Source: Holophagaceae bacterium (GTDB lineage: Bacteria > Acidobacteriota > Holophagae > Holophagales > Holophagaceae). From it: DNA of 64,000 bases. The position numbers and the translations under genes are program-made. The notes below the pieces were generated by a model. The model was not told the origin of the DNA. It was given only the letters and a program-made list of their open reading frames with translations, and searched no databases. Positions 45,368 to 48,731 of this stretch are shown here, in pieces; the stretch's first letter is position 1; the number at the start of each line of letters is the position of its first letter. Where the stretch lies: positions 62,001-126,000 of the forward strand of contig JAJTBS010000005.1 in assembly GCA_021286765.1 (NCBI GenBank). The letters are read 5' to 3'.

Positions 45368-45562
45368 CGTTGACCTCTTGGCTGGGATTGGACCCCCAGC
45401 CTAGCGAGTTCTCCGTGACGGGGCCAGCCTTCTCCGCCGTTGGTCTGAGAGCGTCTATCCTAGGGGAATCCAACCCTCTGGAAATCGCCTGTGCCCCTCC
45501 TACCTCCCGGTCTGCATCCTCCTCGCCAGGTGGGCGCCGCCCCATTCACAGAGGTCCGCTCC

Positions 45563-46468
45563 ATGGACCTCCCCCCCACCCTCCAGCCGGCGGCCATCTT
45601 CCGGGCGGCGCCTCCAAGGGACCGGCGCCTGAGCGCGCTGCTGACCTTGAATGTCTACGCGAGTTTGCTACTGATGCTCTGGATCTGGGTTCGACCGAGG
45701 GGGGCCGGGCCACTCCGGGAGGCTCCCCGGCAGACGATGACGCTGGTTTTGGAGGAGCCCTCCGCCCCGGCACCCCTAAGCCTGGCTCCTTCGATCCAGG
45801 GGGGCACCTCCTCTTCGGAGGTTGGCGTCAGTGCCCTCACCCTTGCACCGGACCCGGCGGTTCCCGACTTGATCATGCCGATGGAGGATCACTCGCGCGA
45901 TCTGCCGGAGCCTCCCCAGCCCGTTCCTGTATCGGCGCCCCCGAATCCCGGGGCCCCGGCGGGGGTGGGCCATGGCACGGGTGTGGGTGGTGGGGATGGG
46001 AGGGGCATCGCCAAGGGGTCGGGACGGGCCATGTTCCGTGCCGTGCCAGGCCTGAATCCCGAGATGAATCTGCAAGATCTGGAGGTGATCCACGAGGAGA
46101 TCCCCAGCTACCCCCTGCTCGCTGAGTGGGGGCGGATCCAGGGTGACGTGGTGGTGCGGGTCACGATCAACGAGCAAGGCATTCCCGTTCGCACCGAGCT
46201 GCAGGAGGGACCCGAGGCCCTACAGTCCGAGACGATGCGGGCGGTGAAGCGGTGGCGGTTCGGCCGCGGGATCTTCCGGGGCAAGAAGGTGGATGCGACC
46301 TTCGATATGACCTTCCGCTACATCCTTCGCGAGAAATCTAGAGCGACCTCGCCAGCTCCAGCCCCTCCTCCGTCCGGCTCAGGTACCAGGTTAAGGCCCG
46401 ACCATCCACGAGTCGCACCTCCGCGGCCGGGAGGCGCTTCTGCAACTCGGCCTGGTTCCGGCGGTTGA
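45563..46468 (+). CDS. TonB-like energy transducer
   Basis: This ~301-residue protein has one N-terminal membrane helix (~28-45, ALLTLNVYASLLLMLWIWV) and a Pro/Gly-rich periplasmic spacer with a glycine run (GVGHGTGVGGGDGRG). The TonB C-terminal domain (~175-260) contains YPLLAEWGRIQGDVVVRVTIN and MRAVKRWRFGRG. It should link a proton-motive complex to outer-membrane receptors, but no exbB or exbD is adjacent. I chose ATG 45563 (GAGG ahead); GTG 45491 is possible. The frame runs 131 bp into the converging endonuclease-BtuF gene, adding a Pro-rich tail beyond the normal domain end. Confidence 0.8.
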   Translation: MDLPPTLQPAAIFRAAPPRDRRLSALLTLNVYASLLLMLWIWVRPRGAGPLREAPRQTMTLVLEEPSAPAPLSLAPSIQGGTSSSEVGVSALTLAPDPAVPDLIMPMEDHSRDLPEPPQPVPVSAPPNPGAPAGVGHGTGVGGGDGRGIAKGSGRAMFRAVPGLNPEMNLQDLEVIHEEIPSYPLLAEWGRIQGDVVVRVTINEQGIPVRTELQEGPEALQSETMRAVKRWRFGRGIFRGKKVDATFDMTFRYILREKSRATSPAPAPPPSGSGTRLRPDHPRVAPPRPGGASATRPGSGG

Positions 46469-47798
46469 AGGGGTAGGGCTCGCTGGGCAGCAGGATGAGC
46501 CGGGGCGCGAGATCCTGGAGATCCTCCTCGGACAGCACCGGATAGCCGTCGGGGCCGATGGGCGTGAGGTTTCCCTGACGCAGGAGGTCGCCCATGTAGG
46601 TATCCGGCCCGGCGCTCATCCAGGGCTGCTTCCAGACCAGGGCCAGGGTGCGGGGACCTTTGCGACGGCGGCCCTTCAAGGAGGCCTCCAGCGCCTGGGC
46701 GCGGGGCTCCGCGGCCTCCGACACGCCCAGCCTTGCGCCCAACTGGCGGAGCGCCGCGGCACAGTCCTTCACGCTGCGGATCTGAAGGGCCAGCCAAGGG
46801 ATGCCCAGGGCCGTCAGGGCCTCGGCGGCTTCCTTCGGGTTCTCGTCGCGCTCGAGGATCACCAGATCTGGCGCCAGGTCGCGGATGCGTGCCAGGTCCG
46901 GGTCCTTGGTGCCTCCGACGGTGGGCACGGAGTTGCGGATCCAGCGGGGCTCGATGCAGTAGCGGGTGCGGCCCACGAGCTGTGCGGCCAGTCCCCACTG
47001 CACCAGGAGTTCGGTGACCGAGGGCACCAGGCTCACGATGCGCAGGGGGCTGCTGGAAGGTGGGGGCAGAGGCGTGAGGGCACTGGTAGGAAGGCCTGAG
47101 GCCGGGACCTGGAGCTTCATTCCCAGATGCGGGTCCTTCACCTTCCCCAGGCCAACCGGGCAGAGGTCGAGCAGCGGGCAGGCGCTGCAATCGGGACGGC
47201 GGGCATCGCAGACGCGGCGGCCGTGGAAGATGAGCTGGTGGTGCAGCTCGATCCAGTCCTCCCGCGGGAACTGGCGGCAGAGGTCGGCCTCCACCTTTTC
47301 CGGCGTGGTGGCCTTGGACAGCCCCAGGCGCCGCGCCACGCGGAAGATGTGGGTGTCCACGGCCAGGGCGGGCACGCCGAAGGCATTGGCCAGCACCACG
47401 TTGGCGGTCTTCTGGCCTACGCCGGGCAGGGCGCCCAGGGCCGCGGGATCGGCCGGCACCACGCCGCCGTGCCGCGCCACCAGAGCCTGGCCGAGGCCGA
47501 TGAGGTTCCGGGCCTTGTTGTGGTAGAACCCCGTGGACCGGATGAGGCTTTCCAGGTCCTCCAGGCGGGCTCCGGCGAGGCTGGCGGCATCGGGGAAGCG
47601 GGCAAAGAGGGCCGGCGTGGTGAGGTTCACCCGGGCGTCCGTGCACTGGGCGCTCAGGATGGTGGCCACCACCAGCTGGAAGGGGTCCGCGTGATCCAGT
47701 GCGCAGCGGGCATCGGGATAGGCGCTGCGCAGGCGGGCCTGGAGATCACCGGGCTTGGGCCTGGACTTGGGCCTGGGATTGGGCTTGGGAAGGCTCAT
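46338..47798 (-). CDS. Fusion of endonuclease III and a BtuF/TroA-like binding domain
   Basis: This continuous 486-residue frame holds two complete domains. Residues ~15-222 are endonuclease III: helix-hairpin-helix LPGVGQK with catalytic Lys130, catalytic Asp148 (VDTHIFRV), and a [4Fe-4S] loop with Cys197, 204, 207 and 213. After a Pro/Ser linker (~231-261), residues ~262-486 form a periplasmic-binding-protein-like domain of the BtuF/helical-backbone metal-receptor type (LRIVSLVPSVTELL, LAPDLVILERDENP), without any signal peptide. An internal ATG at 47120 could start a separate BtuF-like protein, but no stop or good ribosome site separates the two. Endo III repairs oxidised pyrimidines; the role of the second domain is unknown. 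Confidence 0.85.
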   Translation of the reverse strand: MSLPKPNPRPKSRPKPGDLQARLRSAYPDARCALDHADPFQLVVATILSAQCTDARVNLTTPALFARFPDAASLAGARLEDLESLIRSTGFYHNKARNLIGLGQALVARHGGVVPADPAALGALPGVGQKTANVVLANAFGVPALAVDTHIFRVARRLGLSKATTPEKVEADLCRQFPREDWIELHHQLIFHGRRVCDARRPDCSACPLLDLCPVGLGKVKDPHLGMKLQVPASGLPTSALTPLPPPSSSPLRIVSLVPSVTELLVQWGLAAQLVGRTRYCIEPRWIRNSVPTVGGTKDPDLARIRDLAPDLVILERDENPKEAAEALTALGIPWLALQIRSVKDCAAALRQLGARLGVSEAAEPRAQALEASLKGRRRKGPRTLALVWKQPWMSAGPDTYMGDLLRQGNLTPIGPDGYPVLSEEDLQDLAPRLILLPSEPYPFNRRNQAELQKRLPAAEVRLVDGRALTWYLSRTEEGLELARSL

Positions 47799-47870: not shown

Positions 47871-48731
47871 ATGCCCACCACCCTGACGGGAAAGCTCGAC
47901 TGCCAGGAAACCGCCCGCCATTACTTCGAGCTGGTGCGCTCCAACGTGAAGAAGCTGGGCTTCTCCCCCGGCCTGGGCATCGTCCTGGGCAGCCAGGACA
48001 CGGGCAGCCTCACCTACCAGCGCTGGCTCATGAAGGACTGCGAGGATGCGGGCATCAACGCCTCCGACCTGCGGGTGGAGAACGGCATGCAGCTGGTGAA
48101 GCTGGTGGCCCGCCTCAACCAGGACGAGAAGACCCACGGCGTGTTCATCTTCTACCCCCTGCGCTACCAGGAAATCAAGGACGACGAGGTGATGGATCTG
48201 GTGGATCCCGGCAAGGACATCGAAGGCCTGCACGCCATCAACATCGGTTTCCTGAACAAGTACCGGAAGCGCATGGACGATGGCACCCAACACCGCTGCA
48301 TGACGCCCTGCACGGCGCGCGCCGTCGTCAAGACGCTGAAGCGGGGCTTCGGCGAAGCCTGGCTGGCGGGCAAGACCGTGCTCGTCATCAACGACAGCCT
48401 GCGCATCGGCCGGCCCCTCACGGCCATGGTGGCCAACCTGAAGGCCACGCCCATCCTTTGCCACGCGAACACCAACCCGGCTCACCTGGAGGGCTTCATC
48501 CGCATGGCCGACGTCATCGTCAGCGCCGTGCCCGCGCCGGGGTACCAGATCAACACCGACTGGATCAAGGATGGCGCCCTCTGCTTCGACCTGAGCGGCG
48601 AAGGCAACTTCGACTACGAGGCGCTGGTCCGCCGTGGCATCCCCTACACCGACACCACCAAGAACAGCGTGGGCAAGGTCACCCGGGCCATGGCCCTGCT
48701 GAACCTCACCTACGCGGCGGGGCTGGAGTAG
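47871..48731 (+). CDS. FolD-family methylene-THF dehydrogenase, divergent (Mtd1-like)
   Basis: This 286-residue protein has the FolD fold order but altered active-site motifs. In bifunctional FolD the catalytic lysine stands four residues after a conserved Tyr (YxxxK); here Tyr49 is followed at that place by Leu53. QLPLP becomes FYPLR, DVDGF becomes DIEGL, and the Rossmann GRS is NDS (VINDSLRIGRPLTAM). VSAVPAPGYQI and VGKVTRAMALLNL recall yeast Mtd1, a monofunctional NAD-dependent dehydrogenase without cyclohydrolase activity. I infer dehydrogenase-only activity. ATG 47871 has GAGG ahead. It is divergent from the endonuclease III fusion. Confidence 0.75.
   Translation: MPTTLTGKLDCQETARHYFELVRSNVKKLGFSPGLGIVLGSQDTGSLTYQRWLMKDCEDAGINASDLRVENGMQLVKLVARLNQDEKTHGVFIFYPLRYQEIKDDEVMDLVDPGKDIEGLHAINIGFLNKYRKRMDDGTQHRCMTPCTARAVVKTLKRGFGEAWLAGKTVLVINDSLRIGRPLTAMVANLKATPILCHANTNPAHLEGFIRMADVIVSAVPAPGYQINTDWIKDGALCFDLSGEGNFDYEALVRRGIPYTDTTKNSVGKVTRAMALLNLTYAAGLE

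Follow-up and report, generated by a model that had tools for sequence, protein, structure and literature searches.

The joining of endonuclease III (Nth) to a substrate-binding domain of BtuF/TroA fold (hereafter the C-domain) in one reading frame is confirmed here as genuine and as conserved in Geothrix and most of its family, the Holophagaceae; the fusion is ancient. Within the searches made, it is a novel domain architecture built from known families: a universal repair glycosylase has gained a binding partner that we did not find described, fixed over a bacterial family, and a widespread, uncharacterised cytosolic receptor family is tied to a defined cellular process. An earlier note on this DNA knew of no described repair enzyme with such a partner, and neither did we find one: our literature searches on the fusion architecture or the cytosolic receptor returned no relevant description, and the terms periplasmic, TroA, fused and fusion are absent from a review of non-catalytic DNA glycosylase domains (PMC9266487).

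The fused reading frame and its distribution

The window, a stretch of 64,000 nucleotides from a Holophagaceae bacterium, holds the gene as an uninterrupted frame of 486 codons on the minus strand (Table 1), at the coordinates that the earlier note had given. Within it, TIGR01083 (nth, NCBIfam) matches residues 20-204 with 253 bits (1.6e-75; cut-off 211.7) and NF038402 (TroA_like, NCBIfam) residues 253-472 with 143.3 bits (7.6e-42; cut-off 30). The Pfam families HhH-GPD (residues 44-175), HHH and Peripla_BP_2 (PF01497; 57.7 bits on the C-domain against a cut-off of 27.5) score above their cut-offs, and EndIII_4Fe-2S, at 20.2, falls just below its cut-off of 20.5.

Table 1. Features of the fusion locus in window coordinates
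Feature	Position	Strand	Basis or remark
Fusion ORF, 486 aa + TAG stop	46338..47798	-	ATG at 47798, TAG at 46338-46340
Endonuclease III region, residues 1-226	47121..47798	-	profile and structure matches, active-site residues
Linker, residues 227-252	47043..47120	-	alignment of relatives, predicted model
Helical-backbone substrate-binding (TroA/BtuF fold) domain, residues 253-486	46341..47042	-	profile and fold matches
FolD-family gene	47871..48731	+	divergent; conserved neighbour in family
TonB C-terminal-domain gene	45491..46468	+	convergent; ORF overlaps fusion 3' end by 131 bp

K130, D148 and the cluster cysteines C197, C204, C207 and C213 are unchanged in 47 of 47 aligned fusions, and the Nth part closes with a conserved D222-P-H-x-G226. 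The earlier note's reading of a complete endonuclease III, based on Lys130, Asp148 and the four cysteines, is borne out by this invariance and the TIGR01083 match; by profile and residues, glycosylase/AP lyase activity and a [4Fe-4S] cluster would be predicted. The same note had the enzyme running without a stop into a BtuF/TroA-type domain that lacks an export signal, as the intact frame and the NF038402 match bear out: the C-domain starts at residue 253, directly behind Nth and linker, and therefore lacks a separate export signal at its N-terminus. Besides MutY, the fusion is the only endonuclease III found in the source genome, where the query has one further match, a MutY-like frame of 366 aa.

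How widespread is this architecture? Of 77 family genomes (Geothrix and other Holophagaceae), at least 60 hold the two domains within a single open frame (hand count of the search rows, threshold 1e-20); they include those of Geothrix fermentans DSM 14018 (type strain), G. paludis, G. campi, G. terrae, G. rubra and G. limicola as well as Holophagaceae MAGs. With at least 60 genomes in agreement, an assembly or frameshift artefact is ruled out. Three further genomes are broken at contig ends (G012, G016, G062), eight have Nth alone and six have no match. A locus scan found 38 of 39 Holophagaceae-type loci fused, the remaining one (L115) starting at a contig edge; some MAGs in this count (L097, L105, L154 and others) were assigned to the family by sequence and matching genome places. 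All 41 loci from other groups in the same scan are stand-alone receptors, and their examined flanks contain no Nth match.

The earlier note had proposed to look for the architecture across Acidobacteriota. We found it in Geothrix and in the larger part of its family; outside the family no fusion was present among the matches listed from 297 Acidobacteriota genomes (best ~150), nor, outside the phylum, among those listed from 296 Gracilimonas-phylum and 251 Chloroflexus-phylum genomes (547 in all; best ~150 each). As a fusion is expected at the top rank of such lists, the best ~150 matches are informative for absence. A long match in G749, taken up as a candidate fusion, turned out to be Nth alone.

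Linker and predicted structure

Does the gene yield one polypeptide or two? The window has an ATG at the domain junction (47120), from which internal initiation could make two proteins out of one frame, and the earlier note had named such initiation as a refuting case. We give it next to no credence: the ATG is replaced by GTG in the closest relative (L031), the linkers of four relatives (L016, L039, L045, L048) contain no ATG, GTG or TTG at all, and in genus g9, with its reduced genomes of 0.9-1.2 Mb, the linker measures only 16 aa. Across 41 relatives we counted 17 distinct linker lengths (16-67 aa, measured between the end of the LCPVGL motif and the binding domain), with the frame kept in all, and none of the start codons within linkers is conserved across the aligned relatives. 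Together, these two observations make separate proteins unlikely, and the comparison favours a single-chain product. Nor did separate genes in relatives, the other refuting case, come to light: family members are either fused or carry Nth alone, and a separate receptor of this type was not found. In the unfused members (genera g10, g11, g17 and g18, and G079 of g14), of whose scanned genomes only some are near complete, the receptor profile has no match at 1e-3.

Linker sequence is unconserved across relatives. In 12 close pairs, dN/dS is 0.02-0.16 for Nth, 0.09-0.24 for the C-domain and 0.02-0.77 for the linker, which is the least constrained portion of the gene. Purifying selection acts on Nth and C-domain alike, as both ratios are well below 1.

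Several Geothrix species (L050, L049, L051, L019, L011) carry, in frame within the fusion linker, a palindromic repeat with the core TCGCGAGCGAAGCGAGCAGGCGGTCCCCC. This repeat is dispersed, with 1-7 copies (up to 3 mismatches) in nine of ten Geothrix genomes searched, e.g., G014, G017, G044, G045 and G048; it is absent from the source genome, and a reversed control gave 0 matches. Rickettsia palindromic elements likewise sit in frame within protein genes. The linkers of L015, L018, L020 and L022 seem, by eye, to hold another inverted repeat, which is rich in GC: CTCGGGGGGCG...CGCCCCCCGAG.

An AlphaFold2 model, built on an alignment that is shallow in diversity, has two confident domains (mean pLDDT 86.8, pTM 0.55) with pLDDT below 50 at linker residues 233-247. 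The linker is thus predicted to be disordered, and the model predicts no fixed arrangement of the two domains. Foldseek searches match the folds to EndoIII and to BtuF/haem-binding proteins. The N-domain (residues 12-232) aligns with the EndoIII-DNA complex 1p59 (Z 23.4, rmsd 3.3, 210 aligned), and MutY structures also align with the Nth part. The C-domain model has the two-lobed helical-backbone fold, for which haem and B12 binders tie as matches: 2r7a, a haem binder, gives Z 23.0 and the B12 binder BtuF (1n2z) Z 22.7, both with rmsd 2.6 over 232 aligned residues.

With endonuclease III of known structure (1p59/1orn; E. coli 2abk) the fusion shares the HhH-GPD fold, the catalytic Lys and Asp and the C-x6-C-x2-C-x5-C loop, at 41-44% identity to the Nth part by structural alignment. 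The solved enzymes, however, stop after the cluster region, where the fusion adds a C-terminal binding domain. In this respect it resembles MutY, an HhH [4Fe-4S] glycosylase with a C-terminal domain grafted on by a linker, but its partner is a substrate-binding fold rather than a Nudix domain, its linker is unconserved, and the source genome has a separate MutY-like gene.

Function, origin and loss of the partnership

What might the partnership be for? We think it probable that the product is a two-function cytosolic protein, with flexibly tethered domains that are both supplied together. The N-domain would perform ordinary base excision repair, the C-domain would use its interlobe cleft to hold a small ligand from the cytosol, by residues unlike BtuF's B12 cage, and the flexible tether would provide equal amounts and proximity of both without a fixed interface.

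Alternatively, repair could be gated by a ligand, the C-domain sensing a metal, a tetrapyrrole or another metabolite and altering Nth activity or DNA binding. The preservation of the frame through 17 linker lengths would fit such gating, as would the lack of a split form in the family, the pocket changes specific to fused proteins and, by analogy, the position of the partner, which takes the place of MutY's Nudix-like domain. In MutY, that C-terminal domain reads the lesion's partner base. The long, variable linker, predicted to be disordered, however, speaks against a conserved interface, and several relatives have lost the C-domain and kept Nth, so that we regard gating as unlikely. The fuller proposal, in which the cytosolic domain senses a cofactor or metabolite, adjusts endonuclease III and couples repair to the cofactor or redox state, strikes us as slightly more doubtful again. 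We rate direct allosteric control of repair as less likely than co-supply or co-localisation. Two observations count against our main reading as well: at least eight family genomes, one of them (G079) from a genus with fused members, keep Nth without the C-domain, which can thus be dispensed with and has no need to act on Nth, and the stand-alone relatives do not lie near nth.

Where did the C-domain come from? In a tree of 80 sequences, 30 fused C-domains fall together in a single clade (100/98), and the stand-alone relatives, which come from Bacteroidota, Balneolota, Chloroflexota and other Acidobacteriota, lie outside it; as far as the sequences tell, the fused C-domain has one origin. One unfused genome, G079, is congeneric with two fused ones, and its Nth has a linker-like tail; the two facts together suggest that it lost the C-domain. 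We infer an ancestral fusion with later losses; the Nth tree is poorly resolved and cannot root gain versus loss.

The same history might also describe an accident, the loss of a stop codon having joined two unrelated housekeeping proteins that are both useful but functionally unlinked. A single origin would be expected of such an event, C-domain loss is repeated or at least patchy, and the stand-alone receptors have varied neighbours, none of them matching Nth within the examined flank. Against this, no re-split form occurs among the ~60 fused genomes despite linkers that tolerate insertions. We consider an accident a real possibility, though one we lean against, and retain joint supply of two tethered functions as the preferred reading.

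Ligand pocket and gene neighbourhood

The earlier note had suggested that the C-domain could tune repair to the cobalamin or metal state, or simply hold two proteins together. B12 in BtuF is caged by Y50, W66, W85, F162, F168 and W196 (PMC5269720). The corresponding residues in the window are Y280, T297, E316, V388, M394 and Y419, of which two of six are aromatic; four are replacements (W66 to T297, W85 to E316, F162 to V388, F168 to M394), the F162/V388 pairing being read by eye from a gap-free BtuF alignment. In the window, all Rfam families, the one for the cobalamin riboswitch among them, stay below their gathering scores. A specific cobalamin link is not supported by these results. That the C-domain is a BtuF-like cytosolic B12 binder could be argued from its best PDB sequence matches, which are BtuF, from the fold match to BtuF, and from B12-binding enzymes and a FecCD permease throughout the family genomes, reduced ones included. 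Yet haem-binding proteins are equal by fold, the cage is largely replaced, and B12 enzymes also occur in genomes without the domain, so that their co-occurrence does not discriminate; the proposal is, in our view, highly doubtful.

Instead, the C-domain family has a signature that argues for a ligand of its own. Across 80 C-domain sequences, C281, P284, G296, E319, N320, W389, P392, P441, F444 and W471 are invariant, and T297 and K298 nearly so; Cys281, Thr297, Lys298, Glu319, Asn320, Trp389 and Trp471 mark the family. A flat cofactor would still be compatible with the nearby tryptophans. The pocket signature recurs in 'helical backbone metal receptor' proteins that are cytosolic and stand alone, from Bacteroidota, Balneolota, Chloroflexota and other Acidobacteriota. 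They start close to the domain, with a few to several tens of residues ahead of it, and no export signal is visible by eye. Fused proteins differ from these in E316 (Asn elsewhere), L473 (Gly) and W268 (Leu), among others. Lying in or near the predicted cleft, these fixed changes suggest that the ligand or surface of the C-domain was re-tuned after fusion. Geothrix is cultured, so that the ligand as well as any influence on repair is open to direct testing, and an answer there would also shed light on the stand-alone receptors in Bacteroidota, Balneolota and Chloroflexota.

BtuF Glu72, in the first lobe, docks onto the permease. Its position is A303 in the window, and D, A, E or others in relatives. 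Although the C-domain shares fold and profiles (NF038402, PF01497) with BtuF and the TroA-like periplasmic haem-binding proteins ShuT, HmuT and BhuT, it is cytosolic, without a signal and attached to Nth, with most B12-cage residues and the docking Glu replaced and with its own invariant Cys/Thr/Lys/Glu/Asn/Trp set. It thus lacks the export signal, docking Glu and adjacent permease/ATPase genes of a substrate-binding protein of ABC importer cluster A-II (BtuF/FhuD type).

The immediate neighbours of the fusion are folD and the TonB-domain gene; the genome's FecCD permease lies ~115 kb away (C3:222850). Nearly all fused loci, those of genus g9 among them, and the unfused g11 locus have a divergently transcribed FolD-family gene upstream, which makes the nth locus orthologous in fused and unfused members. 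The TonB-domain ORF overlaps the fusion on the opposite strand at 46338-46468, and the sister species L031 aligns along the entire ORF.

Operon context gave no clue to the ligand, since no consistent neighbour emerged from 41 distant and nine Acidobacteriota loci; the stand-alone receptors have varied neighbours and are not near nth. In Balneolota, the receptor is often preceded by a low-molecular-weight phosphatase gene and a fructosamine kinase gene (9 and 12 loci; these include L135, L136, L138, L139, L152, L157, L160, L168 and L171), a possible clue to the stand-alone receptor's role. Isobutyryl-CoA mutase is an adenosylcobalamin enzyme, and in four flavobacterial loci (L155, L159, L166, L169) a protein that resembles, by eye, a fused form of this enzyme is encoded downstream of the stand-alone receptor, at a distance of ~3 kb.
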